In this document: positions 2,400 through 54,641 of the stretch, piece after piece
Layout of the letters: every line of letters begins with the position of its first letter
How positions within the stretch are numbered: the first letter of the stretch is position 1
Assembly (NCBI RefSeq): GCF_946481145.1
Contig: NZ_CAMLMJ010000003.1
Coordinates: 124,001 to 188,000 of the forward strand
DNA length: 64,000 bases
Direction: 5' to 3'
From: an uncultured Sediminibacterium sp.
GTDB taxonomy: Bacteria > Bacteroidota > Bacteroidia > Chitinophagales > Chitinophagaceae
Program-made: the position numbers and the translations under genes
The notes under the pieces: model-generated
Seen by the model: only the letters and a program-made list of their open reading frames with translations
Database searches by the model: none
Told to the model about the DNA's origin: nothing

Positions 2400-2485
2400 G
2401 TGAATTGTCAATGGTGAATTGTCAATAGATAGTACTACAAATTCTAAAGTCAATCCCTATTCACCATTCACAATTGACAATTCAC
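2400..2485. repeat. inverted heptamer array, GTGAATT/GTCAATG type (hemD/hemE gap)
   Basis: Left arm from 2400 (gtgaatt gtcaatg gtgaatt gtcaata); right arm 2458-2485 (ctattca ccattca caattga caattca c). The hemD stop codon TGA (2482-2484, minus) lies inside the right arm, so the array forms the end of the gene. Nearly the whole gap between hemD and the hemE start is array plus a 29-bp spacer. Confidence 0.88.
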
Positions 2486-3186
2486 GATCTCCTAAAGTGT
2501 TTTATCGCTTTTCTCACCAGTTCTTCTTTCCCTGGCGAGTTGGCGGTGATTATTTTATTATTGGTGTATTGTTTAATTGCTGTTGCGGTTGTTTGTCCAA
2601 TGGCGAATAGTACAGTTTGATCAACCACTTTATTTATACTGAAATAACTGTGAACGGCACTTGGACTAAAAAATATCACACCCTGGTAATAGTTTTCCAA
2701 TTTTTTCGGTAGGGGTATGGTTTTATAAACCACTACTTCATTCAGGTCAATGCCTGCTTTGGCAAGTTTTTCGGGTAGCTCGTCTCTGCGTTGATCTCCG
2801 CAAAAGAAAACGACTTCGTCGGTATCTTCATTTTCAATGATGAGGTCTGCCAGATCAGCGGCGCTGCCAGCGGTTCCGGCTATAGCATTTTCACCAAAAT
2901 AGTTTGTGATCAGTTCTGCTGTAGTATTACCCATGCAATAAATATTCCATTCAGGAACCTGTTCATCGAGCATGGTTATTACTGATTCAACGGCATTCAT
3001 ACTGGTGAAAACAACCGTGGCATATTGCAGCGCGGTTTGTTCCACTTCTTGTTGAACGTCTATATCCTGAATGGGTTCTGTATCAATAAATGCAATAGCA
3101 TTTAGTTGAATACCCGATTCAGCGGCTTCAGCTACCAGTGTTTTACTAACTGGTCTTGTACTTAATATGGAGTAATTAGCACTCAT
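2482..3186 (-). CDS. hemD: uroporphyrinogen-III synthase
   Basis: HemD cyclises hydroxymethylbilane to uroporphyrinogen III with inversion of ring D. HemD proteins diverge strongly, but this 234-residue protein has the two-domain layout expected, starting ILSTRPVSKTLVAEAAESGI, with VFTSMNAVESVI (first domain), YCMGNTTAELI (hinge), VFFCGDQRRDELPEKL and VIFFSPSAVHSYF with FAIGQTTATAI (second domain). The start codon overlaps the end of hemC by 11 bp, which supports co-translation and the assignment. The C-terminus is KHFRRS and the stop lies in an inverted heptamer array. Confidence comes from both motifs and position between hemC and hemE. Confidence 0.93.
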   Translation of the reverse strand: MSANYSILSTRPVSKTLVAEAAESGIQLNAIAFIDTEPIQDIDVQQEVEQTALQYATVVFTSMNAVESVITMLDEQVPEWNIYCMGNTTAELITNYFGENAIAGTAGSAADLADLIIENEDTDEVVFFCGDQRRDELPEKLAKAGIDLNEVVVYKTIPLPKKLENYYQGVIFFSPSAVHSYFSINKVVDQTVLFAIGQTTATAIKQYTNNKIITANSPGKEELVRKAIKHFRRS

Positions 3187-4150
3187 TTTTTCTAATGGCG
3201 CGAATAATTTCGGCGCCTCCTTTTTCTATGATTTCCCTGGCTGCTGTTTCTGCTGTTGAAATTGCTTTTTCAATGGATGTTTTATGGATCACCGCAATTT
3301 TTTGTTTGCCGTTGAGTGATAAAACATTTCCACGGAAAATAAATTCGTTGTTGGCCATCGTTGCCAATGCACTGATTGGCGTTGCGCATCCACCCATTAA
3401 TGCACGAAGAAAAGTTCTTTCTGCACTTGCGCAGATTGCAGTAGCTTCATGGTTGAGGGTTGCGCATTGTTCAAATATTTCTTGCTCATCTTCTCTGCAA
3501 ACAACCATCACAGCTCCTTGCGCAGGGGCAGGGAGCATCCAATCCAGCTCAATAGATTTTTCCGGTCTAAGGTTAATACGCTCTAATCCGGCAGCAGCAA
3601 AAATGGCACCTTGCCAGTTACTTTCTTCCAGCTTGCGTAAACGTGTATTTACATTACCCCTGAGATTATCAAACTGATGGTTCGGATACCTGTTCAGCCA
3701 CTGGGCTTTTCTTCTGACACTGCTGGTCGCAACTGTGAATGGTGAATGGTGAATTGTCAATGACTCTTCATTCACCATAGACCATTCACCATTCACGCAA
3801 CCAATTGCTTCAAGTATGGTGTCATCTTTGTAGACCAGTAAATCTTTATGAGATGCTCGTTGTAATACTGCTGCTTCCCTGATTCCCTTTGCGAGTTGAG
3901 TAGGAACATCTTTCATGGAGTGAACGGCAATATCAATTTTATTGCTTAGTAGCGCGGCATCGAGTGTTTTGGTGAAGATACCCTGTACGCCAATTTCATA
4001 TAAAGGAGTAACCAAGTCAATATCACCCTCACTTTTTATGTACACGAGTTCAGTAGCTATTCCTTTTTCTTCCAATAGCTTTTGTACCCATGTGGCTTGC
4101 CACACGGCTAACTGACTGTCGCGTGTACCTATTCTGATTACCCTGTTCAT
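3176..4150 (-). CDS. hemC: porphobilinogen deaminase with in-frame repeat insertion
   Basis: HemC (hydroxymethylbilane synthase) polymerises four porphobilinogens on a dipyrromethane cofactor. Visible motifs: IRIGTRDSQLAVWQA (5-19), HSMKDVPTQL (77-86), ATSSVRRKAQW (141-151), LRGNVNTRLRKLE, and RTFLRALMGGCATPISA with the Cys that binds the cofactor. The protein is 324 residues, a little over the usual 300-315. The excess is a stretch of about 21 residues (119-139, beginning VNGEWSMVNEE) with no HemC counterpart, encoded exactly by a heptamer inverted array at 3735-3796. It sits in a variable loop just before the TSSxRR motif, so the enzyme is probably still active. The gene follows hemA by 8 bp and overlaps hemD by 11 bp. 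Confidence 0.96.
   Translation of the reverse strand: MNRVIRIGTRDSQLAVWQATWVQKLLEEKGIATELVYIKSEGDIDLVTPLYEIGVQGIFTKTLDAALLSNKIDIAVHSMKDVPTQLAKGIREAAVLQRASHKDLLVYKDDTILEAIGCVNGEWSMVNEESLTIHHSPFTVATSSVRRKAQWLNRYPNHQFDNLRGNVNTRLRKLEESNWQGAIFAAAGLERINLRPEKSIELDWMLPAPAQGAVMVVCREDEQEIFEQCATLNHEATAICASAERTFLRALMGGCATPISALATMANNEFIFRGNVLSLNGKQKIAVIHKTSIEKAISTAETAAREIIEKGGAEIIRAIRKNEC
3735..3796. repeat. inverted heptamer array inserted in frame in hemC
   Basis: Four tandem units (gtgaatg gtgaatg gtgaatt gtcaatg; 3735-3762), a 10-bp loop, then caccata gaccatt caccatt cac (3773-3796). This is the same unit type that elsewhere occupies gaps between genes, here lying wholly inside hemC codons 119-139 without breaking the frame. 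Read on the minus strand it is free of stop codons. Confidence 0.92.
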
Positions 4151-5612: not shown

Positions 5613-6641
5613 ATGGCAACAAATACGAAGCGCGCACTTTTATTGATGAATCTTGGATCTCCTGATTCAACGGAAGTGAAGGATGTTAGAAGATACCTGA
5701 ACGAATTTTTAATGGATGGACGCGTAATAGATATCCCATATCTCGTTCGTGTTTTATTGGTTAGAGGCATTATCGTTCCTTTTCGTGCCCCTAAATCGGC
5801 AGAAGCTTATAAGAGCGTCTGGACAAATGAGGGATCGCCCCTCATTGTTCTAACAAAACAGTTACAGCAGGCACTACAGCAAAAGATAAGTGAGCCGGTG
5901 GCCATTGCTATGCGGTATGGAAATCCATCCCCCAAACAGGCTTATGATGAACTGATGAAAGAAAATCCTGATTTGGAGGAAGTGGTATTACTCCCTTTGT
6001 ACCCCCACTATGCCATGAGCAGTTATGAAACGGCGGTGGAATATGCGAAAGAACACTATGAAAAAGGCAAATATGGTTTTAAACTTACTATCATAAAACC
6101 ATTCTATGACGATGCTGATTATATCGATGCGCTGGCACAATCCATGAAGCCTTATACGGAACAGGAGTATGATCATTTTTTATTCAGTTACCATGGTGTT
6201 CCCCAAAGACATATACGCAAAAGCGATACAACCGGCTGTCATTGTCTGCAGGTAAACAATTGTTGTGAAACGGCTTCTGCTGCTCATGCAACTTGTTACC
6301 GTCACCAGTTGGTGGTAACCACAAAACTGGTAGCAGAAAAATTAGGAATTCCCAAAGAAAAATACAGTATCTCATTTCAATCAAGATTGGGCAAGGGGTG
6401 GCTGGAACCCTTTACGGATAAGCGTCTGGAAGCTATGCCTGGTGAAGGCATTAAAAAATTACTGATAGCCTGTCCAGCTTTTATCAGCGACTGCCTGGAA
6501 ACCATTGAAGAGATAGGTGAGGAAGGAAAAGAAACTTTTATGCATGCCGGCGGCGAATCCTTTACCCTTATACCTTGTCTGAATACGCATCCTGCGTGGG
6601 TGGATACAATAATTAGGCAATTTGAAAATTTGAAAATTTGA
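5613..6641 (+). CDS. hemH: ferrochelatase
   Basis: HemH inserts ferrous iron into protoporphyrin IX (or coproporphyrin III in other pathways). The 342-residue protein begins ALLLMNLGSPDSTEVKDVRRYL and has the catalytic-histidine motif SYHGVPQRHIRKSD (His194), QSRLGKGWLEPFTDK and the C-terminal CPAFISDCLETIEEI with the acidic cluster. A Cys/His-rich segment CHCLQVNNCCETASAAHATC (about 211-230) is prominent; some ferrochelatases hold a 2Fe-2S cluster, but I cannot tell whether this one does. The last codons and the TGA stop (QFENLKI) are built from an octamer array that continues past the gene. It diverges from hemA and is followed by hemJ, so final heme assembly is transcribed apart from the early steps. 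Confidence 0.97.
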   Translation: MATNTKRALLLMNLGSPDSTEVKDVRRYLNEFLMDGRVIDIPYLVRVLLVRGIIVPFRAPKSAEAYKSVWTNEGSPLIVLTKQLQQALQQKISEPVAIAMRYGNPSPKQAYDELMKENPDLEEVVLLPLYPHYAMSSYETAVEYAKEHYEKGKYGFKLTIIKPFYDDADYIDALAQSMKPYTEQEYDHFLFSYHGVPQRHIRKSDTTGCHCLQVNNCCETASAAHATCYRHQLVVTTKLVAEKLGIPKEKYSISFQSRLGKGWLEPFTDKRLEAMPGEGIKKLLIACPAFISDCLETIEEIGEEGKETFMHAGGESFTLIPCLNTHPAWVDTIIRQFENLKI

Positions 6642-6765
6642 AAATGATGTATTATTTAATAGTAGGCTATATTTAGCATTAGGAAAAAGAGTGAAAATGA
6701 AAGTCCGTATCAATCTGCTTCATTTTCAAATTTTCAAATTAGCTCATTTTCAAATTTTCAAATTG
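6618..6765. repeat. inverted octamer array, AATTTGAA type (hemH/hemJ)
   Basis: Three tandem copies of aatttgaa (6619-6642) plus aatg end hemH. Five 8-mer slots at 6722-6761 (attttcaa, attttcaa, attagctc, attttcaa, attttcaa) plus attg precede hemJ in inverse orientation. The left arm holds the hemH TGA; the right arm holds the likely hemJ TTG start at 6763-6765. The 75-bp spacer between the arms shows no other feature. Confidence 0.85.
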
Positions 6766-10938: not shown

Positions 10939-11868
10939 ATGGCTACGAAAAAACCAGCTCCTAAGGCAGCTAAAAAACCGGCTCCAAAGGCAGCACCAGC
11001 CAAGAAAACAGCTTCTAAACCAGCACCCAAGAAAGCTGCTGTTAAACCTGCGCCTAAAAAGGCGGCTAAACCGGCTCCAAAGCCTGCTCCTAAAAAAGCG
11101 GCTCCTGCCAAAAAAGCAGCTAAGCCTGCGCCAAAACCTGCTCCTAAACCAGCAGCAAAAGCGCCTGTAAAAGCTACCAAGCCTGCGCCTAAACCCGCAC
11201 CGGCCCCGGTAAAAAAAGCGGCAGCTCCGGCAAAGCCTGCACCTAAAGCACCCGTTAAAGCAGCACCTGCCCCGGCAGCAAAACCTGTTTCAACACCATT
11301 GCCACCCATGAAAAAACCAGAGCCTAAGGGTCCACCTGCACCTCCTGTGAAACCAGTGCGCAAAGCACCGGAACCACTTAAAGAGGTAAAAGTGCCTAAA
11401 ACAAGCACCAAGTCGAGCGTTCCTTATCAGCCCGGATATACACCATTAGAAAAAAGAGTAGAAACTGTGAGAAATAACGAAACATTAGTGAAGTACAGTG
11501 ATGCGGACCTGAATGAATTCCGTGACCTGATCAATAAAAAACTGGAAGCTGCTAAAAAAGAGCTTACTTATTTACAAGGTCTTATTACCCGTAAAGATGA
11601 AATGGGTGGCGATAATGACGATGCCCGTTACATGACCATGGAAGATGGCAGTATGAGCATGGAAAGAGAGCAACTGAGCCAGATGGCCAGCAGGCAGATT
11701 ACTTACATCGATCACCTGGAAAAAGCCCTCATGCGTATCGAGAATAAAACCTACGGAATTTGCCGTGTTACCGGTAAACTCATCGATAAAGCACGCCTCC
11801 GCGCAGTACCTCACGCAACTTTGAGCCTGGAAGCAAAGCTTGGGTTGGTGAAGCCGAGTAGTGAATAG
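10939..11868 (+). CDS. DksA/TraR-family protein with long Ala/Lys/Pro-rich N-terminal tail
   Basis: Residues 1-130 are nearly pure Ala, Lys and Pro (KPAPKAA-type repeats), resembling histone-H1-like tails that bind nucleic acid. Residues about 150-309 resemble DksA/TraR regulators: a start segment YQPGYTPLEKRVETVRN, a coiled coil (DLINKKLEAAKKELTYLQGLI), an acidic tip GGDNDDARYMT, the returning helix, and the finger region YGICRVTGKLIDKARLRAVPHATLSLEAK. In that finger only the first of four zinc cysteines remains, so a zinc-free fold is likely. DksA proteins act in the RNA polymerase secondary channel; whether this one does is inference. It follows ileS by 6 bp, probably in one transcript. 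The final codons (SSE, stop) are formed by the edge of a heptamer array. A strong terminator follows. Confidence 0.88.
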   Translation: MATKKPAPKAAKKPAPKAAPAKKTASKPAPKKAAVKPAPKKAAKPAPKPAPKKAAPAKKAAKPAPKPAPKPAAKAPVKATKPAPKPAPAPVKKAAAPAKPAPKAPVKAAPAPAAKPVSTPLPPMKKPEPKGPPAPPVKPVRKAPEPLKEVKVPKTSTKSSVPYQPGYTPLEKRVETVRNNETLVKYSDADLNEFRDLINKKLEAAKKELTYLQGLITRKDEMGGDNDDARYMTMEDGSMSMEREQLSQMASRQITYIDHLEKALMRIENKTYGICRVTGKLIDKARLRAVPHATLSLEAKLGLVKPSSE

Positions 11869-12001
11869 TGTGAATTGACAATGGTGAATTGTCAATAGCA
11901 TTAATATAAAATAATAGAGGTCGCAAACTGCGACCTCTATTATTTTATATTAATGCTACCACGATCTACAGCCTATTCACCATTCACTATTGACAATTCA
12001 C
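11861..12001. terminator. nested terminator: 29-bp perfect hairpin inside heptamer arms
   Basis: The core is a perfect 29-bp stem (11897-11925 with 11929-11957) and a 3-nt loop, with tcgca/tgcga at the tip and an AT-rich base. It is enclosed by GTGAATT-type heptamer arms (left from 11861; right ctattca ccattca ctattga caattca, 11973-12000). It separates two convergent genes and can end transcription from both sides. Confidence 0.88.
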
Positions 12002-12002
12002 C

Positions 12003-13823
12003 CTATCTCACTTCCTGCATCTCCACCAACTTACGGTAAATACCTCCTTTTGCCAATAACTCATCATGTGTTCCTCTTTCGGCGATTTCGCCTTTTTGTA
12101 ATACGATTATTTCATCGGCATTACGGATAGTGGAAAGTCGGTGGGCTATGACGATGGAAGTTCTTTGCTGCATCATATTATTGATGGCATCCTGTACCAG
12201 TCTTTCACTTTCGGTATCGAGCGATGAAGTTGCTTCGTCAAGAATTAAAATGGGAGGGTTCTTAAGCACAGCACGGGCAATGGTTACACGCTGGCGCTCA
12301 CCACCGCTGAGTTTAGAACCTCTGTCACCAATATTCGTGTCGAAACCTTCTTCCTTATGCTGAATAAAATCATAGGCATTTGCCACACGTGCAGCCTGTT
12401 CAATATCAGGCTGGTTCACCTGATCCATTCCCAACGCAATATTATTGGCTATGCTATCATTAAAAAGTATAGGTTCCTGTGTAACAATACCCATCTGGTT
12501 GCGAACAGAATGCAGGGTATATTCTTTGATATTTACCCCATCTATCAGCAATTCACCACTACTTACATCGTGAAAGCGGGGAACAAGATCTGCCAATGTA
12601 CTTTTACCTGCACCCGATGATCCAACAAGTGCAATGGTTTTGCCTTTTTCAATTTTCAGGTTGATGTTTTTCAGAATAGTCACATCTTCATACATGAATG
12701 AAACATTCCTGAATTCAATGGAATGCTGAAAGTTCTCCAGTTTTTTCGCACCGGGGTTATCCGTAACAGTAACAGGAGCCTGCAATACTTCTTCGATACG
12801 TTGAATAGCAGCACTACCACGCTGGGCGCTGTAAAAGGAACCGGAAAGTGATTTAGCCGGATTAATGATCTGAGTAAAGAATACGATATAAGTAATAAAA
12901 CTTTCTGCTTTCAATCCCATTTGTCCATCAAGCACTAATTTCCCGCCAAACCAAAGTATACAAGACAATACCAATACACCCATGAATTCGGACATAGGTG
13001 AGGCGAGGTCTTTCCGGAAATTCATCTTGTTACGGATATGATTTAGGGCATTGTTGTTACCGATGAATTTGCTTTGTAAAATTTTCTCCGCATTAAATGC
13101 TTTGATTACGCGCAAGCCACCCAATGTTTCATCGAGAATGGACATCAATGTGCCCAGCTTTTCCTGTGATTCGGTTGACTGTTTTTTGAGAGAGCGACTA
13201 AGTCTGCCAATGATAAAACCAGTTAAGGGTAATAATACCAGTAGGAATAAGGAAAGCACCGGACTCAGTAAAACCAGCATTACAAGAATGATCAGGATAT
13301 TGAGTGGATCTTTGATCAATCCTTCAAGGGTACTCATCACGCTCCATTCTACTTCATTGGCGTCATTGCTCATTCTGCTGATGATATCACCTTTGCGTTG
13401 CTCTGTAAAGAAACCTATAGGTAACTCAAGAATCTTACCGTAGAGGTCGGCCCTGAGTTTGGTCATTACATAGTTACGCATAGGTGCCAGCACCCGAAAC
13501 GATAAGTAGGTAAAGAGATTTTTTAGGAATACAGACACGATGATGATACCACAAATGGTTGCCAATGCATAGATTTCACCGTACTTGATGATCAGTTGAC
13601 TGAGGAAATATTTGAAATAAATTAACACTCCATTGGCGCTGAGGGTAAAGTTGGGTTCAACATTTACCAGGTTCTCCTTATTAAACAGTAACTGTAGAAA
13701 AGGAGCCAGCATAGCTAGTGAAACCAATGAAAAAAGGATAGAAAACAGGTTGAAAAACAGGTATAATACAATGTTTCGCTTCTGGTTATGCAGGTAAAAG
13801 AGTATTCTCGAAAATCGCTTCAT
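12003..13823 (-). CDS. MsbA-like ABC transporter, fused permease and ATPase
   Basis: A 606-residue half-transporter that presumably works as a homodimer in the inner membrane, exporting lipid or another hydrophobic substrate. The N-terminal half has about six membrane segments and the motif YGKILELPIGFFTEQRKGDIISRMSNDANEVE typical of type IV exporters. The nucleotide-binding half has Walker A GSSGAGKSTL, the Q-loop VTQEP, the signature LSGGERQRV, Walker B ILILDEATSSLD and the H-loop IAHRLST. I place the start at ATG 13821-13823 (MKRFSRILFYLHNQKRN), since upstream codons add residues untypical for the family. It converges on the DksA-like gene and diverges from rbfA. Sequence alone does not separate lipid A flippase from other multidrug-type exporters. 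Confidence 0.9.
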   Translation of the reverse strand: MKRFSRILFYLHNQKRNIVLYLFFNLFSILFSLVSLAMLAPFLQLLFNKENLVNVEPNFTLSANGVLIYFKYFLSQLIIKYGEIYALATICGIIIVSVFLKNLFTYLSFRVLAPMRNYVMTKLRADLYGKILELPIGFFTEQRKGDIISRMSNDANEVEWSVMSTLEGLIKDPLNILIILVMLVLLSPVLSLFLLVLLPLTGFIIGRLSRSLKKQSTESQEKLGTLMSILDETLGGLRVIKAFNAEKILQSKFIGNNNALNHIRNKMNFRKDLASPMSEFMGVLVLSCILWFGGKLVLDGQMGLKAESFITYIVFFTQIINPAKSLSGSFYSAQRGSAAIQRIEEVLQAPVTVTDNPGAKKLENFQHSIEFRNVSFMYEDVTILKNINLKIEKGKTIALVGSSGAGKSTLADLVPRFHDVSSGELLIDGVNIKEYTLHSVRNQMGIVTQEPILFNDSIANNIALGMDQVNQPDIEQAARVANAYDFIQHKEEGFDTNIGDRGSKLSGGERQRVTIARAVLKNPPILILDEATSSLDTESERLVQDAINNMMQQRTSIVIAHRLSTIRNADEIIVLQKGEIAERGTHDELLAKGGIYRKLVEMQEVR

Positions 13824-13888
13824 ATTCAGGATAAAATCGGTAAAACACAGCAAAGTAACTAATTTTACCACCAATTAAAGCGATCAAC

Positions 13889-14272
13889 ATGGAAGAGGGA
13901 AAACGTCAAAGACAAGTGGCAGGGGCCATACAGGAATCAATGAATGATATTTTCAGACGGCTAAACCTGGCTATGATTGATGGCGGAATGGTATCTATCT
14001 CGTCTGTTAAAGTAACACCTGACCTTTTGGAAGCACGCATTTACCTGAGTCTTTTTCAGGTAAAAGACCAAAAGTCTGTGATGAAAACCATTGAAAGCCG
14101 TGCCTGGGAAATCAAAAAAGAACTGGCCGACAAAATGAAACATCAACTCCGCAGAATACCTGTTCTTCATTATTATCTGGATGATACATTAGATTATGTG
14201 TTTAAAATGGAGGAGATTTTTAAAAAAATTAATGAGGAGAAGAAAGATAACGGAGGTGACGGTAGTGAATAG
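13889..14272 (+). CDS. rbfA: ribosome-binding factor A
   Basis: RbfA is a small KH-fold protein that helps mature the 5' end of 16S rRNA in the 30S subunit. The 127-residue sequence begins MEEGKRQRQVAGAIQESMNDIFRRL and contains VSISSVKVTPDLLEARIYLSLF and LRRIPVLHYYLDDTLDYVFKMEEIF, matching the family along its length. ATG at 13889 is the natural start. The last residues (GDGSE) and the TAG stop come from the edge of a GTGAATA-type array. It is followed after 39 bp by an FtsX-like permease gene, an arrangement that fits a two-gene transcript. Confidence 0.95.
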   Translation: MEEGKRQRQVAGAIQESMNDIFRRLNLAMIDGGMVSISSVKVTPDLLEARIYLSLFQVKDQKSVMKTIESRAWEIKKELADKMKHQLRRIPVLHYYLDDTLDYVFKMEEIFKKINEEKKDNGGDGSE

Positions 14273-14297
14273 TCACCATTCACTATTCACCATTCAC
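14264..14297. repeat. short heptamer array, GTGAATA/CCATTCA type (after rbfA)
   Basis: A single left unit (gtgaata, holding the rbfA TAG stop) faces tcaccattcactattcaccattcac-type units at 14272-14297. It is a smaller, asymmetric version of the arrays seen elsewhere, directly before the next gene of the same strand. Confidence 0.75.
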
Positions 14298-14311
14298 CAA
14301 AACCCACAACA

Positions 14312-15517
14312 TTGAACTTCCTTTTTGCCTGGCGCTATTTTCGTTCCAAGAAATCTACCAATGCAATTAATATTATTGCATGGATCAGCGTTACGGCTAT
14401 TACTGTTGGATGTGCGGCACTTATCATTATTCTTAGTGTATTTAATGGATTTGAAGAACTGGTAAAAGGACTTTATACGGATTTCTACACCGATATTCGG
14501 GTTGCGCCTGCAAAGGGTAAAATATTAAAATTAGATAATGAACGCCTGCATCAAATTAAAGCAGTGAAAGGTGTGGCGGTGGTGAGTCTGGTTGCCGAAG
14601 AAAAAGCATTGCTTGTGAATGGCCCATATCAGGCCATTGTATTGGTGAAAGGAGTTGATGAGCAATATGCTTCTACCAATAAAATTACCGACCATATTAA
14701 GAGAGGAAAATATAATTTGGGTAATGCTGAATCTCCCCAAATTGTATTAGGCTATGGTATTGAAAATGCGATTGGTGCTGAGGTTGAACGATCTGTTTAT
14801 CCTCTCACACTTTATACACCCAACCGCAAAGCAAAGTTTAATTCTTTGGAAGGACTAAACGTGCAACAAATCAGGCCCTCGGGCACATTTCAGGTGCAAC
14901 AGGAGTTTGACAATAAATATGCATTTACCAACCTCGATTTTTTCAGGTATATGCTTAATATGAACAGCGATGAATACAGTGCTGTTGAAATTAAAGTGAC
15001 TGGAAAGGAAAATGAAGTAAAACAACAATTGCAACAATTGCTTGGCAAGGAATTTCTAGTGCAGACCAGGTATGAGCAGAATAAAAGTCTTTACGCGGTG
15101 ATGCAAATGGAGAAGTGGGTTATCTATGCTATCTTATCACTGATACTTGTTGTGGCAGCGTTTAACATGATTGGCGCATTAACGATGCTTGTATTAGAGA
15201 AGCAAAAAGATATTGCCGTATTGCAGGCAATGGGAGCTTCTCAAAGAAGAATACAATCTATATTTTTATCAGAGGGTTTATTGCTTGCAGGTGTTGGTGC
15301 CGCGTTAGGCATGTTGCTTGCAACATTAATTTGCTGGATACAAATTCGCTTTGAACCCATTAAACTGGGAGGCGATACATTTATTGTAAAAGCATATCCG
15401 GTAAAGCTCATCCTATCAGATTACCTGCTTGTACTTGTAACAGTAACTGCTATCGGTTTTATTGCCGCTTGGATTCCTTCGAGAAAAGCAAGTAAGCAGG
15501 AGTTGGCGTTGAAGTGA
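14312..15517 (+). CDS. ABC transporter permease, LolC/LolE (FtsX/MacB) type
   Basis: A 401-residue membrane protein with one N-terminal membrane segment (INIIAWISVTAITVGCAALIIILSVF), a large periplasmic MacB-core-like domain (about 45-270), and three C-terminal segments with the FtsX signature IYAILSLILVVAAFNMIGALTM and QKDIAVLQAMGAS. The family includes LolC/E, which move lipoproteins from the inner membrane, and this is the likeliest role. The ATPase partner is not adjacent. The start is a TTG at 14312-14314; the first residues NFLFAWRYFRSKKS are the standard N-terminus of LolC/E-like proteins, and no ATG is available. It follows rbfA and converges on the transketolase gene across a nested terminator. 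Confidence 0.92.
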   Translation: MNFLFAWRYFRSKKSTNAINIIAWISVTAITVGCAALIIILSVFNGFEELVKGLYTDFYTDIRVAPAKGKILKLDNERLHQIKAVKGVAVVSLVAEEKALLVNGPYQAIVLVKGVDEQYASTNKITDHIKRGKYNLGNAESPQIVLGYGIENAIGAEVERSVYPLTLYTPNRKAKFNSLEGLNVQQIRPSGTFQVQQEFDNKYAFTNLDFFRYMLNMNSDEYSAVEIKVTGKENEVKQQLQQLLGKEFLVQTRYEQNKSLYAVMQMEKWVIYAILSLILVVAAFNMIGALTMLVLEKQKDIAVLQAMGASQRRIQSIFLSEGLLLAGVGAALGMLLATLICWIQIRFEPIKLGGDTFIVKAYPVKLILSDYLLVLVTVTAIGFIAAWIPSRKASKQELALK

Positions 15518-15520
15518 GAT

Positions 15521-15631
15521 CAAAATTCAAAAGTCAAAATTCAAAAGTCAAAAAAAGAGAGCCGCTTATGAATAATAAGCGGCTCTCTTTTTTAAACGAT
15601 ATTTTTGAATTTTGACTTTTGAATTTTGACT
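15521..15631. terminator. nested terminator inside CAAAATT/CAAAAGT heptamer arms
   Basis: An 18-bp perfect stem (15551-15568 with 15576-15593) ending in a T run forms a bidirectional terminator between convergent genes. Outside it lie exact heptamer arms: caaaatt caaaagt caaaatt caaaagt (15521-15548) and their complement tttgaat tttgact tttgaat tttgact (15604-15631). Confidence 0.92.
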
Positions 15632-15634
15632 TCT

Positions 15635-16477
15635 CTAATAGTCCCCCAACGTTTCAGGCAATTGCGCCAAAGCTTTGGCTAATTGTTCGTCGCTTGGGGC
15701 GATGCCGTGCCATTCGTGGCTGCCTTCCATGAAGTCTACACCTTTGCCCATCGCTGTTTTCATGAGTATGCAGATGGGCTTACCCTGGCCGGTCATTGAT
15801 TTTGCTTTATCCAGAACTGCAACAACATCATCCATATCATTGCCATTCATTTCGAGAACGGTCCAGTTAAATGCTTTGAATTTATCGTGCAAGCTATCCA
15901 GCGCCAGTACTTTACTGGTTGGGCCATCGATTTGCTGACCGTTCCAATCGATGGTAGCAATCAGGTTATCTACTTTATTATGGGCAGCAAACATTACTGC
16001 TTCCCAGATTTGTCCTTCCTGTAATTCGCCATCACCATGCAAAGAAAAAACGAGGTGAGGGTCGTTATTGTATTTTTTGGTAAGTGCAGCACCGATTGCC
16101 ACACTCATACCCTGACCCAGTGAACCACTAGCAATACGTACACCTGGTAGATGATCGTGAGTGGTTGGGTGGCCCTGCAAACGGGTATTCAGCTTGCGGA
16201 AGCTAGCCAGCTCTTTCGCGTCGAAATAACCAGAACGCGCCAATACGGAATAATAAACAGGAGAAATATGTCCGTTAGAAAGGAAAAACAGGTCTTCCCC
16301 CACACCATCCATTTTAAACTGGCGGTCGTGCTTCATGGTATGAAAAAACAGGGCGGTTAAGAAATCGGTACAACCCAATGATCCACCGGGGTGTCCGCTT
16401 TGTACGCCATGTACCATTCTTACGATGTCGCGCCTGATCTGTGAGGCCGCTGACTGGAGTTCCTGGATGCTTGCCAT
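15635..16477 (-). CDS. transketolase, N-terminal (TPP-binding) subunit
   Basis: This 280-residue protein is the thiamine-diphosphate-binding half of a split transketolase, acting in the non-oxidative pentose phosphate pathway. It contains SGHPGGSLGCTDFLTALFF (about 27-45), HDHLPGVRIASGSLGQGMSVAIGAALT and the Mg-TPP motif HGDGELQEGQIWEAVMFA with the following N. The C-terminal pyrimidine-binding half that such split enzymes need is not next to it, nor elsewhere in the window. The end (QLPETLGDY) is normal for split N-subunits, so this is not a truncation. ATG at 16475-16477 starts MASIQELQSAASQIRRDIVRMV. It diverges from frr; heptamer arrays flank it on both sides. Confidence 0.92.
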   Translation of the reverse strand: MASIQELQSAASQIRRDIVRMVHGVQSGHPGGSLGCTDFLTALFFHTMKHDRQFKMDGVGEDLFFLSNGHISPVYYSVLARSGYFDAKELASFRKLNTRLQGHPTTHDHLPGVRIASGSLGQGMSVAIGAALTKKYNNDPHLVFSLHGDGELQEGQIWEAVMFAAHNKVDNLIATIDWNGQQIDGPTSKVLALDSLHDKFKAFNWTVLEMNGNDMDDVVAVLDKAKSMTGQGKPICILMKTAMGKGVDFMEGSHEWHGIAPSDEQLAKALAQLPETLGDY

Positions 16478-16509
16478 AGTATGGTTTTAATAGTGGTGCG
16501 AAGATAAAG

Positions 16510-16591
16510 GTGAATTGTGAATTGTCAATGGTGAATTGTCCAATGTGCATACATGTTCTGATTCATTGGCCATTCACTATTGACAATTCAC
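16510..16591. repeat. inverted heptamer array, GTGAATT type (divergent tkt/frr region)
   Basis: Left arm gtgaatt gtgaatt gtcaatg gtgaatt gtc (from 16510); right arm ccattca ctattga caattca c (to 16591). Unlike most copies this one lies between divergent genes, so it is not explained as a terminator. Confidence 0.85.
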
Positions 16592-16635: not shown

Positions 16636-17199
16636 ATGTCAGAAGAGCTGGATTTAATACTCGCCGATACGGAAGATAATATGGGTAAAGCCATCAATCA
16701 CCTGGAAACGGAACTCACCAAAATACGTGCTGGTAAGGCTAATCCTACCATGTTGGATGGTATTGCGGTGGATTATTATGGCTCACCAACACCGATTAAC
16801 CAGGTTGCTAATATCAGCGTACTGGATGTACGTACCATCAGCATACAGCCATGGGAGAAAAATATGCTTGCCGCTATTGAGCGTGCTATTATGGCTGCCA
16901 ATATTGGCATTACTCCTCAAAATGATGGAGTGCAGTTACGTTTGTTTTTACCACCATTAACCGAGGAAAGAAGAAGAGAACTGGTGAAAAGAGCAGCCGG
17001 TGAGGGAGAACATTCAAAAGTAGCCATCCGTAATATTCGTCGCGACGCCATTGAGCAAGTAAAAAAATTACAAAAAGATGGTCTAAGTGAAGATGCCGCA
17101 AAAGATGCAGAAAAATCTATCCAGGATGTAACAGATCGGTTTATATCACTGGTAGACAAACACCTCGCGGCAAAAGAAAAAGAAATGATGGCGGTTTAG
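16636..17199 (+). CDS. frr: ribosome recycling factor
   Basis: RRF splits post-termination ribosomes together with EF-G. The 187-residue length and full-length match are standard: a helical start (MGKAINHLETELTKIRAGKANP), the conserved IAVDYYGSPTPINQVANISV, ISIQPWEKNM, IGITPQNDG, LRLFLPPLTEERRRELVKRA and IRNIRRDAIEQVKKLQKDGLSEDAAKDAEKSIQDVTD. ATG at 16636 begins MSEELDLILADTEDNM. The gene usually follows pyrH, which is not here. A hairpin terminator wrapped in TCTGACA-type heptamers follows the stop. Confidence 0.97.
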   Translation: MSEELDLILADTEDNMGKAINHLETELTKIRAGKANPTMLDGIAVDYYGSPTPINQVANISVLDVRTISIQPWEKNMLAAIERAIMAANIGITPQNDGVQLRLFLPPLTEERRRELVKRAAGEGEHSKVAIRNIRRDAIEQVKKLQKDGLSEDAAKDAEKSIQDVTDRFISLVDKHLAAKEKEMMAV

Positions 17200-17208
17200 A
17201 TATTTGTA

Positions 17209-17387
17209 TGTCAGATGGCAGATGTCAGATTTTTATCGCTGATGTCGGATTTAGGAAGAAATAATTTGAGGGTTGCGAAATTGTTCGCAACCTTTTTTCG
17301 TAAATAAATCTGACATCTGCAATCTGACATCTGCAATCTGACATCCTCAAATTTCAAATCAGACATCCTACATCAGATATCAGCCAT
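17209..17387. terminator. frr terminator inside TGTCAGA/ATCTGAC heptamer arms
   Basis: The core ggttgcgaa (17271-17279) and ttcgcaacc (17284-17292) followed by six T is a classical terminator for frr. Before it stand tgtcaga tggcaga tgtcaga (17209-17229); after it five exact heptamers atctgac atctgca atctgac atctgca atctgac (17308-17342), then looser copies up to the next gene's stop. Confidence 0.88.
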
Positions 17388-24658: not shown

Positions 24659-25390
24659 ATGGCTATCAAAGCAATCATTATTGATGATGAAAGACTTGCA
24701 CGAAATGAGTTAAAGAAATTATTGCAGGATCATGCTGATATAGAAGTTATTGAGGAAGCTGCTAATGTGGATGATGGGATCGAAAAAATCGAAACCCTCA
24801 ATCCTGATTTGATTTTCCTTGATATTCAAATGCCGGGCAAAACAGGGTTCGACCTGCTTGCCGAAGTAGAAAAAGCTCCTAAAGTAATTTTTACCACTGC
24901 TTATGATGAATATGCCATCAAAGCATTCGAAGTAAATGCACTTGATTACCTGCTAAAACCCATTGAACCCAAGCGTCTTTCAGATGCCATTCAAAAACTA
25001 CAGGCTGAAATGTTCAAAGAATCAGCCGGTATTAATGGCGTTAACAGAGGCCCACTTACCGAACTCGACCAGGTATTTGTAAAAGACGGTGAACGTTGCT
25101 GGTTTGTGAAACTTGGTGAAATCCGCTTGTTTGAAAGTGTTGGTAACTACGCTAAAGTATTCTTCGGTACCAACAAACCCCTTATCTTAAAATCTTTGAA
25201 CGCACTGGAAGAAAGACTTGACGACAGAATGTTTTTCCGTGCCAACAGAAAACATATCATTAATCTCCGCTGGATTGAAAAAATTGAACCATACTTCAAC
25301 GGCGGTCTCCTCGTAGACCTGAAAGGCGGCGAAAAAATAGAAGTAAGCCGCAGACAGACGGTTAAGTTTAAAGAAATGATGAGCTTGTAA
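24659..25390 (+). CDS. LytTR-family response regulator
   Basis: A 243-residue regulator. The receiver domain (1-118) has the acidic pair IIDDE, phospho-acceptor Asp55 in LIFLDIQMPGKTGFD, TTAYDEYA and Lys100 in LLKPIEP. The C-terminal LytTR DNA-binding domain (about 140-243) includes VFVKDGERCWFVKLGEIRLFESVGNYAKVFF and FFRANRKHIINLRWIEKIEPYFNGG. It is phosphorylated presumably by the kinase encoded 21 bp upstream. Targets cannot be inferred. A GTGAATT-type array starts right after the stop codon, before the M28 peptidase gene. Confidence 0.95.
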   Translation: MAIKAIIIDDERLARNELKKLLQDHADIEVIEEAANVDDGIEKIETLNPDLIFLDIQMPGKTGFDLLAEVEKAPKVIFTTAYDEYAIKAFEVNALDYLLKPIEPKRLSDAIQKLQAEMFKESAGINGVNRGPLTELDQVFVKDGERCWFVKLGEIRLFESVGNYAKVFFGTNKPLILKSLNALEERLDDRMFFRANRKHIINLRWIEKIEPYFNGGLLVDLKGGEKIEVSRRQTVKFKEMMSL

Positions 25391-25391
25391 A

Positions 25392-25492
25392 GTGAATTGT
25401 GAATGGTGAATTGTCAAATAAAGAGAATTGACCATTCACCATTGACCACCCACATCTCACCATAAATTCACCATTGACCATTCACAATTGAC
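25392..25492. repeat. heptamer array, GTGAATT type (before the M28 peptidase gene)
   Basis: Left units gtgaatt gtgaatg gtgaatt gtcaaat; then two successive right-arm blocks (ccattca ccattga, and again ccattga ccattca caattga). The array fills the whole gap between two same-strand genes, and includes a TTG in frame with the peptidase that is not a credible start. Confidence 0.82.
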
Positions 25493-25505
25493 ACCCCCCA
25501 TCAAA

Positions 25506-26801
25506 ATGAAAAAATATTTCTTACTATTTGCCATCCTCACCACAGTAGCGGTTTCTGCGCAGGACGTTGAAAAATTAATCAGCATGAGTGAGGTTGAACG
25601 TATTGAACGCACTCTCTCTTCTGATGAAATGGAAGGCAGACGCACTTTTACCAAAGGAATTGATAAGGCTGCTGCTTTTATTGCAGATGAGTTTAAAAAA
25701 ACCGGCCTGAAAACCTGGAACAATAGCGGCTCATACCTGCAACAATTTGCAATGGTTCGTCCAAAATTCATCAGTGTTGCTGCAAGCATAGGCGGTGTTA
25801 GTTTAGATAGCAGAGATGTGATTGTGGTAACCTGTCAACCTGAAATAAACATCACCGAAAAATCTGGCTACGAAAAGGTAAAAATTAGCGCAGGTACTAA
25901 TCTTATTTCGGAAGCAAGGAAATTGCTTACGGCCAATAAGAATTATGTGGTGATTGTTGATACGAGTCAGGCTAAAAATTTCAGTACACTTACAAGACTA
26001 AAATCTACCATCTTTAAAACAGACAAGAATGTTGTTTTTATATTGGCTGCAAATGATCCGGCAAGTTTTAGTGTAAACTGTAAACATGAAATCACTGAAA
26101 TGCCATTGGCAAATGTGGTAGGAGTGTTGCCTGGGAAAAGTAAGAAAGACGAGTATGTAATTTTCTCCGGCCATTATGATCACCTGGGTGTGGTGAGCAA
26201 AGACAGGAACGGTAATGTATTAACCGATTCTATCTTCAACGGTGCTAATGATGATGCAGCAGGAACTACGGCTATGATGGTTTTGGCACAGTATTTCAAA
26301 AAAGTAAATAACAACGAACGTACATTGATTTTTGCTGCATTCACAGCAGAAGAAGTGGGCGGCTTTGGCGCCACTTATTTTTCTCGCCAATTCGATCCGG
26401 CAAAAGTAATGGCCATGTTCAATATTGAAATGATTGGATCAGAAAGTAAATGGGGCAAGAATTCAGCATTCATTACTGGATTTGAGAAAACAGATATGGG
26501 TAAAATTTTGCAAGCTAACCTGGCCGGAACTGATTTTACTTTTTATCCTGATCCTTATACTGAGCAAAACTTATTTTATCGTTCAGACAACGCCACCCTT
26601 GCCCGTTTAGGTGTTCCTGCGCATACAATTTCTACCACTAAAATAGACGTAGACCCTTATTACCATAAAGCAACTGATGAATTCAGTACCATTGATATAG
26701 ACAATATGACCCGTATCATTCGTGCTATTGCACTTAGTTCGAGAGGTATTGTAAGTGGAAAGGAAACGCCTACAAGGGTGGATACATCTGATTTGAGATA
26801 A
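25506..26801 (+). CDS. M28-family metallopeptidase, secreted
   Basis: A 431-residue protein starting MKKYFLLFAILTTVAVSAQ, a Sec signal peptide. The C-terminal two thirds is a M28 zinc aminopeptidase domain: SGHYDHLG (first zinc His), NGANDDAAGTTAM (bridging Asp), AFTAEEVGGFG (catalytic Glu pair), NIEMIGSE and a late HKATDEFSTID segment with a zinc His. A PA-like insertion may occupy about 95-205. It likely trims peptides in the periplasm or outside the cell. I start at ATG 25506, since earlier codons translate the heptamer array. It converges on porP over a shared terminator. Confidence 0.92.
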   Translation: MKKYFLLFAILTTVAVSAQDVEKLISMSEVERIERTLSSDEMEGRRTFTKGIDKAAAFIADEFKKTGLKTWNNSGSYLQQFAMVRPKFISVAASIGGVSLDSRDVIVVTCQPEINITEKSGYEKVKISAGTNLISEARKLLTANKNYVVIVDTSQAKNFSTLTRLKSTIFKTDKNVVFILAANDPASFSVNCKHEITEMPLANVVGVLPGKSKKDEYVIFSGHYDHLGVVSKDRNGNVLTDSIFNGANDDAAGTTAMMVLAQYFKKVNNNERTLIFAAFTAEEVGGFGATYFSRQFDPAKVMAMFNIEMIGSESKWGKNSAFITGFEKTDMGKILQANLAGTDFTFYPDPYTEQNLFYRSDNATLARLGVPAHTISTTKIDVDPYYHKATDEFSTIDIDNMTRIIRAIALSSRGIVSGKETPTRVDTSDLR

Positions 26802-44819: not shown

Positions 44820-44978
44820 TTATTTTAATCAAACAATAGGATTTCAATAATTTTTAAATAAGTCGCAATAGCTGACGATTTCTTACAATGCAATTCAATA
44901 ATCAATGAAACAGTGCATTATTATTTACACAAAACAAGGGGGGATTTGAAAATACAACTTTTTAGGTAATAACGAGCA

Positions 44979-45076
44979 TCCATAGTCCATAGTCCATAGT
45001 CCATGGTCCATGGTCAATGGTCAATGGTTTATGGTTTATGGTTTATGGTCTATGGTCTATGGACTATAGACCATAA
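44979..45076. repeat. tandem heptamer array, TCCATAG to TCTATGG
   Basis: Twelve exact 7-bp units in unbroken register: tccatag x3, tccatgg x2, tcaatgg x2, tttatgg x3, tctatgg x2 (44979-45062), then actatag and accataa. Successive blocks differ by one or two bases. Several units are complementary to others in the array (ccatag with ctatgg), so a hairpin can form. It lies just beyond the stop codon of the GGGP synthase gene. The rest of the gap to the NfeD gene (44820-44978) is AT-rich and shows nothing else. Confidence 0.9.
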
Positions 45077-45077
45077 A

Positions 45078-45833
45078 TTAAATACTAATAAAGCTGCTGT
45101 GTACGGCCGCGCTCATTTCTTTAATAAGGGAAAGGTCTTTTTCGATTGCGTTGCCAACCACAATAACATCTGCTCCGGCTTTACAATTCAGGTAGGCTTT
45201 TTCCGGATCTGTAATACCACCTCCGATGATGAGGGGGGCTTCGATATGGCGTGCCACTTTTTCTATCATGGCTTCTGAGATAGGGCGTTTTGCACCACTT
45301 CCTGCATCCATATAAATCAGCTTCATGCCAAGCATTTCACCGGCCATAGCGGTGCACATGGCTATTTCATTTTTATCGGCTGGAATAGGTGTTGCATTGG
45401 AAATATAGGAAACGGTTGTGGGTGCACCACCATCAATAACCATATAACCGGTGGGCATGATCTCCAGACCGCTTTTTTTCACAAATGGTGCGCTGATTAC
45501 GTGTTGACCAATCAATAATTCCGGATTACGGCCAGAAATGAGTGATAGGTATAAAAGAGCATCTGCATATTTACTAACCTGAGAAGGGGAGCCGGGGAAC
45601 AATATCACAGGAATATCGCAGGCGGCTTTGATCTGCTGGATACATTCATCAAGATGGCTGGAAATAACCAGACTACCGCCCACAAAGAAATAATCCACTT
45701 TTGCTTCAACGGCTAAAGTGACCAATTGGTCAATATTGCCGCCATCAACCTTATCGGGGTCGATGAGCACAGTAAATGATTTCCTGCCGGAACGCTTTCT
45801 TTCTGCCAGTTGTTGATATAAATCCTGCTTCAT
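45078..45833 (-). CDS. geranylgeranylglyceryl phosphate synthase family protein
   Basis: A 251-residue TIM-barrel enzyme of the GGGPS/PcrB family, which attaches a prenyl chain to sn-glycerol-1-phosphate through an ether bond, a reaction known from archaeal lipid synthesis. Visible motifs: FTVLIDPDKVD (16-30 region), VDYFFVGGSLV, CDIPVILFPGSPSQVS, the conserved GYMVIDGG, KLIYMDAGSGAKRPIS and PLIIGGGITDPEKA with VVVGNAIEKD. Bacteroidota members of this family have been reported; whether this one uses geranylgeranyl diphosphate, and what the product is for, cannot be read from the sequence. ATG at 45831-45833. It diverges from the ribonucleotide reductase. Confidence 0.9.
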   Translation of the reverse strand: MKQDLYQQLAERKRSGRKSFTVLIDPDKVDGGNIDQLVTLAVEAKVDYFFVGGSLVISSHLDECIQQIKAACDIPVILFPGSPSQVSKYADALLYLSLISGRNPELLIGQHVISAPFVKKSGLEIMPTGYMVIDGGAPTTVSYISNATPIPADKNEIAMCTAMAGEMLGMKLIYMDAGSGAKRPISEAMIEKVARHIEAPLIIGGGITDPEKAYLNCKAGADVIVVGNAIEKDLSLIKEMSAAVHSSFISI

Positions 45834-54059: not shown

Positions 54060-54194
54060 GAAAGTCCGGAAGTCCGGGAGACCGGGAGCAGAATTATTTA
54101 ATAAGAGGTATCAGTGAATAACAGCTTACAAATTGTTTTTGCAACCTATAGACAAAAAATTTCTTCCCGACTTCCGGACTTTCGGACTACCGGA
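54060..54194. repeat. inverted octamer array, AGTCCGGA type (copA/tsaE)
   Basis: Left units agtccgga agtccggg agaccggg (about 54063-54086); right units, in perfect register, cttcccga cttccgga ctttcgga ctaccgga (54163-54194). The spacer is 75 bp of AT-rich DNA. It lies between divergent genes, directly upstream of the tsaE promoter box. Same unit type as after mscL. Confidence 0.87.
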
Positions 54195-54206
54195 CTTTTT
54201 CCCCCG

Positions 54207-54214
54207 TACATTTG
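54207..54214 (+). promoter_or_regulatory. candidate -7 box for tsaE (leaderless)
   Basis: TACATTTG fits TAnnTTTG and ends 4 bp before the ATG at 54219, so transcription would start at or next to the start codon. Confidence 0.5.
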
Positions 54215-54218
54215 CATT

Positions 54219-54641
54219 ATGGATGCAATTTTTGGACTTCCGCAAATTGAGCAGGTAGCAAAGGCTTTGTGGAAAGAAGGCAAAAAAAATAAAGTGTGGG
54301 CATTTCATGCCGATATGGGTTCTGGTAAAACAACTTTTATTCATGCCTTATGTACGTATTTGGGCGTAACAGACGCGATTAGTAGTCCAACATTTGCCAT
54401 TGTGAACCAATACCAGAGCAAAGAGGCGGGAGTGTTATTACACATGGATTGGTATCGGTTAAAAGATGAGGAGGAAGCTATTATGGCTGGAATTGAAGAC
54501 CAGCTACTCAGTAACCAGTATTGTTTTATCGAATGGCCTGAAAAAGCTGCTGGACTTTTGCCTGACGATACTTTTCATGTATACATTCAACTGCTGGATG
54601 CTGCAACAAGACGATTATATACCGATGCAGAAGCAATTTGA
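54219..54641 (+). CDS. tsaE: tRNA threonylcarbamoyladenosine biosynthesis ATPase TsaE
   Basis: TsaE is the ATPase that works with TsaB and TsaD to make t6A in tRNAs that read ANN codons. The 140-residue protein has Walker A HADMGSGKTTFIHAL, the switch segment SSPTFAIVNQY, and HMDWYRLKDEEEAIMAGIEDQL and CFIEWPEKAAGLLP, all diagnostic. I start at ATG 54219 (MDAIFGLPQIEQVAKALW); an in-frame ATG at 54114 would add 35 residues translating the octamer array. It is followed after 63 bp by alanine dehydrogenase, an order I recall from other Bacteroidota. Confidence 0.95.
   Translation: MDAIFGLPQIEQVAKALWKEGKKNKVWAFHADMGSGKTTFIHALCTYLGVTDAISSPTFAIVNQYQSKEAGVLLHMDWYRLKDEEEAIMAGIEDQLLSNQYCFIEWPEKAAGLLPDDTFHVYIQLLDAATRRLYTDAEAI

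Follow-up and report, generated by a model that had tools for sequence, protein, structure and literature searches.

The hemC gene in the 64-kb stretch of DNA analysed here (the window) contains an inverted array of heptamer repeats in frame; the array is real, is common to relatives and lies at sites that recur among them. By the names of its nearest HemC proteins and loci, the window derives from a relative of Sediminibacterium in the Chitinophagaceae, whose members live in soil and fresh water. In being tandem and dispersed in many copies, the heptamer arrays agree with heptameric simple sequence repeats. The reading we favour, at a probability of roughly 0.55, is that a heptamer class dispersed in many Chitinophagaceae takes over permissive loops, either by colonising them or by overwriting them, that its units are homogenised in situ and to some extent across the genome, and that selection filters the copies. 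We infer the spread of the arrays from comparison of sequences, no change in an array having been observed directly.

The ORF call, Pfam, homologues and solved relatives all identify hemC, on the minus strand at 3176-4150, and its 324-aa product has both porphobilinogen deaminase domains (PF01379, 5.3e-69; PF03900, 1.1e-12). The array totals 62 bp (3735-3796) and consists of two 29-nt inverted arms, both of period 7, with 86% complementarity and a 4-nt spacer. Read on the plus strand, arm 1 (3735-3763) is GTGAATG GTGAATG GTGAATT GTCAATG A, and arm 2 (3768-3796) is made of CATTCAC units. On the minus strand arm 2 reads GTGAATG GTGAATG GTCTATG GTGAATG, which gives VNGEWSMVN, with TCT in the position where a pure GTGAATG array would read TGA. 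The initial annotation had described an in-frame, stop-free array in codons 119-139, and ORF, repeat and inverted-arm analysis bear this out: on the minus strand the array makes up these codons with zero stops and zero frameshifts. Residues 119-139 are VNGEWSMVNEESLTIHHSPFT, immediately N-terminal of VATSSVRR, in which we take TSSVRR to be the cofactor-site motif.

Arrays of the same kind were also said to fill gaps between genes, and they do so at six sites of the window, three of which have a 14-mer, GTGAATTGTCAATG, in common. This 14-mer has four copies in the window, in hemC (3749) and in the arrays at 1263, 2400 and 16517, and a single occurrence in the 2.53 Mb of loci L001-L170. Two-armed GTGAATT/ATTCACC arrays lie at 1262-1358, adjoining ORF 1348-2379, and at 25386-25492, between ORFs 24659-25390 and 25488-26801, and a two-armed GTGAATT/ATTCACA array at 2400-2490 separates ORF 1348-2379 from the ORF downstream of hemC (2482-3186). 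The other sites hold two GTGAATT-type arms around a long palindrome (GCATTAATATAAAATAATAGAGGTCGC...) at 11870-12001, between ORFs 10939-11868 and 12003-13874; an ATTCACC array at 14263-14310, between ORFs 13889-14272 and 14312-15517; and a GTGAATT array at 16505-16542, between ORFs 15635-16477 and 16636-17199.

The window has further repeats. An inverted pair of another heptamer type (TCAAAATTCAAAAG / TTTTGAATTTTGAC) at 15515-15558 and 15598-15636, between convergent ORFs, is perhaps a terminator. An additional heptamer type, AATCTGACATCTGC, occurs at 297-330 and 17308-17345, and period-8 arrays (AATTTGAA / ATTTTCAA; CTTCCGGA) occur at 6619-6645, 6722-6764 and 54163-54197, the last within ORF 54114-54641. 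A long mixed array at 44970-45080 has CCATAGT, CCATGGT, GTCAATG, GTTTATG and GTCTATG units adjacent to one another and looks as if heptamer types interconvert within one array.

The HemC loop before ATSSVRR is a hot spot for arrays and is not private to the window genome. All 120 HemC homologues among the matches listed (8000 scored) have a segment at the array site, which rules out a private insertion and contradicts the earlier expectation that sister species would lack the segment. Most of these segments are heptamer-like, although the homologues were compared as proteins only and some segments (for example, that of P0091) are not clearly heptamer-derived. The homologue P0002, 95% identical overall, has DHGPWTMDH (CCATGG type) where the window's HemC has the ATTCAC type; of the nearest loci, L001 has the same array type as the window and L002-L004 have the CCATGG type.

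For the comparison of loci, hemC came from named records (best 80 of 159 matching stretches) and from a further sample of 195 family genomes, of which 153 had a match and 90 were used; as these were mainly the best-scoring genomes, the sample leans towards the window's relatives. The matches of G041, G024 and G050 have one in-frame stop each within the matched stretch. From 171 loci including the window, 12 duplicates and 10 loci without a recognised motif were removed, leaving 149 for loop scoring. A period-7 score of at least 16/21 at lag 7 was reached by 29 of 149 hemC loops and by 4 of 2244 equal-length windows elsewhere in hemC. The 142 loci placed in a tree comprise 70 with short array-less loops (19 residues or fewer, 17 being commonest), 38 with long loops without a recognised array and 34 with a repeat. 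At 34 residues the window's loop is indeed longer than the short array-less loops, but relative to their commonest length the gain is about 17 residues, not the 21 first proposed. The 29 high-scoring loops have 22 to 42 residues, except for two TTCGAA loops of 15 and 17; TTCGAA arrays in hemC loops add no length. Given the 38 long loops without a recognised array, some of which (for example, L008 and L017) look like decayed arrays, loop length alone is no marker of arrays. An array census of 159 loci (2.43 Mb, 2189 ORFs) gave 158 arrays, of which 59 are intergenic, 58 are at ORF edges, 32 are in the hemC stretch (28 in scored loops, with L021, L027 and L140 not scoring in the loop and L089 outside the loop scoring) and 9 are internal to other ORFs, some of them doubtful (L011, L163).

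Different repeat words occupy this same site. The ATTCAC/GTGAAT type is the most frequent, ACTCAC is found in L097, L082 and L083, CCATGG in L002-L004, TTCGAA in L023 and L102, and GTTGACA in L020 and L134. Palindromes of the form CCCCTTTAGGGG stand in frame in the hemC loops of L110 and L139, plus L020, and the loop of L094 has a GC-rich hairpin within an ATTCAC array. In a quick tree of 142 of the 149 scored loci, built with the loop left out and with loop labels assigned by hand, sisters carry different repeats (L097/L139, SH-aLRT 99; L014/L020, SH-aLRT 100), and the window's group combines ATTCAC and CCATGG rows (96, 99). The tree requires 43 changes for all nine labels, 'short' and 'long' included, and 21 for array versus no array.

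Arrays also occur inside other enzymes. Beyond hemC we covered 80 stretches around dispersed array sites, in which overlaps (L179-L181) count a few sites twice, L180 and L207 are hemC, and L172, L205 and L208 lie near an N-terminus and may reflect a wrong start. The GTGAATK clusters of G013, G010 and G014 are intergenic in 20 cases, at an ORF edge in 8 and inside ORFs in 16 (two of them hemC). With hemC excluded, the CCATGG sites of G003 divide into 15 intergenic, 6 at ORF edges and 4 inside ORFs, and the TTCGAAA sites of G012 and G087 into 13 inside ORFs and 1 intergenic. In G012 each of the 12 exact TTCGAAA sites is coding: 11 fall in ORFs that match a Pfam family, and the remaining one, to judge by its position, is in hemC. 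Since coding sequence makes up about nine tenths of a bacterial genome, the TTCGAAA type shows no avoidance of genes. Pure TTCGAAA and pure CCATGGA arrays are both stop-free on both strands, and the CCATGGA type is mostly intergenic in G003 although equally stop-free.

The host ORFs, which we name on the assumption that Pfam families and general knowledge identify them correctly, include RsmB- and RsmF-like methyltransferases, UbiD, a Mur ligase, a P-type ATPase, ArgH-like lyases (Lyase_1), an IleRS-like class I tRNA synthetase, dihydroorotate dehydrogenase (DHO_dh), an OTC-like carbamoyltransferase (OTCace), a BioD-like AAA_26 protein, a RibF-like FAD synthetase, an Fmt-like formyltransferase and a methylmalonyl-CoA mutase fusion; the internal sites L193, L197, L213 and L232 were outside the Pfam search. 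A CopA-like ATPase has a two-armed array at residues 443-476, exactly between the stretches that align with the solved relative 3j09 (7-441 and 476-741), and dihydroorotate dehydrogenase has an 8-residue excess at its array relative to the solved relative 1f76. A side observation concerns the genome of the Niabella ginsengisoli locus, in which the ORF L210:2517-4028 has class I tRNA synthetase catalytic and leucyl editing pieces flanking a DUF559 endonuclease-like domain, as if a homing-type domain lay inside leuS.

In ArgH, a lag-7 score of at least 16/21 was found in 8 of 27 covered loops, three fragments that do not cover the loop (L277, L278, L280) being left out, and in 0 of 465 windows from the rest of the gene. 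A loop length of 25 is common to 8/8 array loops and 17/19 others, the exceptions being one loop of 24 and that of G002, which has 32 residues and units split by 7 additional ones. The types are ATTCGAA (G012, G087), ATTCACG (G151, G001), ATTCACC/A (G003, G004, G010) and ATTCAAA-like (G186). G010 and G013 are both Lacibacter by their hemC loci, and the ArgH of G010 (IAATIDHSQFTIDEGI, array) aligns with that of G013 (IAATIELGSFIIEEGI, no array) without a gap. For RsmB, 7 of 29 loops reach 16 at lag 7, and the control windows are less clean than those of ArgH (7/416 reach 15, maximum 19). A loop length of 26 is seen in 6/7 array loops and 12/22 others, with the types ATTCGAA (G012, G087), ATCCGAA (G154), AAAAGTC/TCACTTT (G151), ATTCACT/C (G013, G010) and ATTCAAA-like (G191). 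Arrays in ArgH, and most of those in RsmB, overwrite a loop without altering its length. The initial description of the array as 'inserted' fits the added length in HemC but is incomplete, because the ArgH and most RsmB arrays replace a loop that already exists.

The hemC type matches the rest of the genome for some types (CCATGG, TTCGAA), not as a universal rule. Matches were counted, hemC copies included, in 30 genomes picked to span loop types, a non-random and phylogenetically non-independent set. For CCATGGWCCATGG, G002, G003 and G004, whose hemC loops are of the CCATGG type, have 23, 34 and 17 matches per strand, and the remaining 27 genomes have 0-4. For TTCGAAATTCGAAA, G012 and G087, with hemC loops of the TTCGAA type, have 21 and 11, and the remaining 28 genomes have 0-1; its reversed control matched 30 times in G070, 15 per strand, so this genome may have an AAAGCTT-type heptamer array. 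For CCCCTTTAGGGGANNGGG the counts are 18, 11 and 19 in G011, G148 and G125, which have the palindrome in hemC, and 0-16 in the other 27 (G154 having 16). The CCCCTTTAGGGG palindrome family, which also stands in frame in hemC loops, is common to many genomes (15/30).

Two other words behave differently. Among the 30 genomes, GTTGRCA tandems (GTTGRCAGTTGRCA) are not specific to genomes with that hemC type and are commoner in genomes without it: G011 and G132, the two that have it, show 4 and 2 matches, three of the four in G011 overlapping and being hemC itself by position, whereas G003, G004, G163 and G186 show 31, 14, 14 and 13. ATTCACG tandems (ATTCACGATTCACG) were expected in G151, G191, G001 and G002, and this failed for the first two, G151 having them only in argH (2 overlapping matches) and G191 only in hemC (3). 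G001 and G002 have 4 and 3, one each in argH. Although it lacks an array in its ArgH, G177 has 19, and G085 and G005 have 7 and 5. The ATTCACG arrays of G151, G191, G001 and G002 are therefore not copies of an abundant genome-wide type and, together with the GTTGRCA counts, this indicates that homogenisation is at least partly local. GTGAATK tandems are present in 14/15 genomes of array-bearing hemC loci and relatives, in 15/25 further family genomes and in 3/21 genomes behind other named loci (5, 2 and 1 matches). Among these 21 genomes they are absent from Chitinophaga sp. CF118, Puia dinghuensis, Deminuibacter soli, Segetibacter koreensis and Chitinophagaceae bacterium LY-5, so the type is not universal in Chitinophagaceae. 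G070 has 19 GTGAATK tandems, yet its hemC loop is short and array-less, which shows that a hemC array is not obligatory.

In the reading we favour, the hemC array is one copy of a class of period-7 repeats, often paired as inverted arms, that lie mostly between genes and also in frame within permissive loops of conserved enzymes. Template switching or short-homology conversion at replication would seed new arrays at short unit-like stretches. Slippage and the process known as quasi-palindrome correction would then homogenise the units in situ, and part of the homogenisation would draw on other arrays of that genome. Purifying selection would retain only copies that preserve the frame, avoid stops and are located in loops that tolerate them. 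A putative example is the loop preceding ATSSVRR in HemC, which would have been repeatedly colonised and retyped. The array most likely has no function for HemC and is tolerated selfish or mutational DNA. In the phase that would give TGA, coding arrays have GTCAAT 13 times and GTGAAT 0 times; an open frame by definition excludes GTGAAT there, and the informative part is that this phase is filled by GTCAAT. In the other two phases GTGAAT is found 31 times and GTCAAT 13 times, and in intergenic and edge arrays 95 and 49 times.

A purely local origin is a possible, if doubtful, account: each coding array would have grown in place, through 7-nt slippage and quasi-palindrome correction, from a seed that arose by chance; loci would exchange nothing, and the likeness of arrays would reflect a shared mutational bias. 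The confinement of exact ATTCACG tandems to one gene each in G151 and G191 speaks for it, the argH array of G010 begins at a CCATTGA stretch also present in the congeneric G013 (ACCATTGA), and ArgH arrays come without a change in length. However, bulk CCATGG and TTCGAA tandems are found only in genomes with those types in hemC, the 14-mer that hemC shares with three of the window's intergenic arrays hardly occurs outside them, and inverted arms are not produced by slippage alone. It is unlikely that a genome's coding and intergenic arrays are instead rewritten in concert, in place and at constant length, to its own heptamer by a trans-acting templated process, which could use, for example, a templated polymerase or short ssDNA that anneals at the replication fork. 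If this were true, the hemC, argH and rsmB loops would be re-edited to a new word whenever a lineage changes type.

We regard it as decidedly unlikely that loops receive insertions of a mobile palindromic element akin to RPEs, MITEs or REPs and moved by a transposase such as a Y1 RAYT. Copies are dispersed, have inverted arms and stand in frame in unrelated genes, 28 of 35 genomes have a Y1_Tnp (PF01797) match, and in G163 (contig C40, 99238-99627) 40 nt separate such a match from a GTGAATG tandem. Against this, neither length nor core is constant among the copies, ArgH arrays add zero length, and G087, G151, G191 and G154 have coding arrays without a Y1_Tnp match (some are drafts, in which the gene may be missing), so a Y1 transposase is seemingly not needed. 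A RAYT as a required factor is thus not supported.

The heptamer class of the favoured reading resembles several known systems. The available parts of PMC10969869 describe Rickettsia palindromic elements (RPEs) as palindromic repeats of about 150 bp, in ten described families, that stand in frame in many unrelated conserved genes and are tolerated by the protein. The arrays here are likewise in frame in many unrelated protein genes. For the addition of residues to the host protein the picture is mixed: HemC (34 versus 17 residues) and the CopA-like ATPase show a gain, whereas 8/8 ArgH array loops have the common length. Unlike RPEs as described there, with their size and family consensus, the hemC array has 62 bp, copies vary in unit number and type, and arrays are apparently retyped between relatives and in ArgH overwrite rather than insert. 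By analogy, heptamer arrays seem to act like RPEs, and they are not RPEs. The RPE parallel in the initial annotation is supported as an analogy because conserved enzymes of related genomes hold in-frame arrays, but RPEs are not the sole other case: the abstract of PMC6649704 reports perfect coding palindromes of up to 284 bp in Nematomorpha mitochondria, whose arms encode conserved protein regions. Those, too, are inverted repeats within working protein genes, whereas the arms here are short heptamer arrays in variable loops.

Known bacterial heptamer repeats share the 7-nt unit and the dispersion. Excerpts of PMC4692102 and PMC4679880 give GGGAATC in Xanthomonas, sometimes in inverted pairs, GGGGA(C/T)T in Nostoc, and TAACTGA in Beggiatoaceae, Cyanobacteria and five Bacteroidetes, with some repeats intragenic and one unit pair near the purC gene end in a Bacteroidetes strain (PMC4679880). 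In these excerpts, unlike here, each group has one named unit, mainly intergenic. The REP/BIME/REPIN repeats with RAYT are also dispersed palindromes outside genes, with REPs being 20-40 bp long and GTAG- or CGTC-tagged in the available text of PMC3733652; the arrays here showed no fixed palindrome, and genomes without a Y1_Tnp match, some of them drafts, also have coding arrays. We found no report of heptamer arrays within Chitinophagaceae genes among the open-licence PMC papers searched, and no same-site heptamer retyping in enzyme loops in the accessible parts of the RPE, heptamer-repeat and Nematomorpha papers above.

That the extra residues serve HemC, through selection on the protein, is very improbable. 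The loop adjoins the TSSVRR motif and, in an alignment of 26 HemC sequences picked from the best hits, W123 is invariant and V119, N120 and G121 are nearly so. However, 70/142 tree rows have short array-less loops, and loop residues are replaced wholesale when the heptamer changes. An AlphaFold2 model of HemC (mean pLDDT 84.2) places the array in a low-confidence stretch, between helix 110-115 and strand 139-141, that is mostly coil, with block pLDDT values of 59 and 68 and values below 50 at residues 127-130; this agrees with the loop location proposed at the outset.

Regulation of hem genes by an RNA hairpin in the hemC mRNA is even harder to credit. The window's hairpin is very stable: the folding energy of 82 nt is -40.5 kcal/mol, whereas 200 shuffles average -18.55 (sd 2.83), which gives a z of -7.76, so the structure is not due to chance. 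Across loops, an arm pairs better with its own partner than with an arm taken from another genome (permutation 0.0008, with relatedness still included). However, with shuffles that preserve single-base make-up only, z is below -3 in 13/36 array loops and 2/70 array-less loops, many array loops being near zero and those of L007, L010, L013, L018, L107, L114 and L137 above -1, and 108/142 tree rows, outgroups among them, have no array. A conserved RNA element as a general feature is thereby ruled out, and the hairpin is not the selected feature. An assembly or sequencing artefact, for which no supporting point was found, can be dismissed, since array-bearing hemC loops occur in five separate records named as strains rather than MAGs (L006, L010, L018, L052, L071) and the window's protein cluster P0001 has 12 member sequences on 3 contigs at 99% identity.

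Repeats that change within essential enzymes illustrate how DNA of selfish or mutational origin can turn into protein, here far from the reduced genomes of Rickettsia. The same HemC, ArgH and RsmB loops carry different words across species, some of them cultured, which makes the origin of repeat-derived protein segments directly testable; the within-genome likeness of dispersed repeats is likewise testable in harmless bacteria such as Lacibacter.
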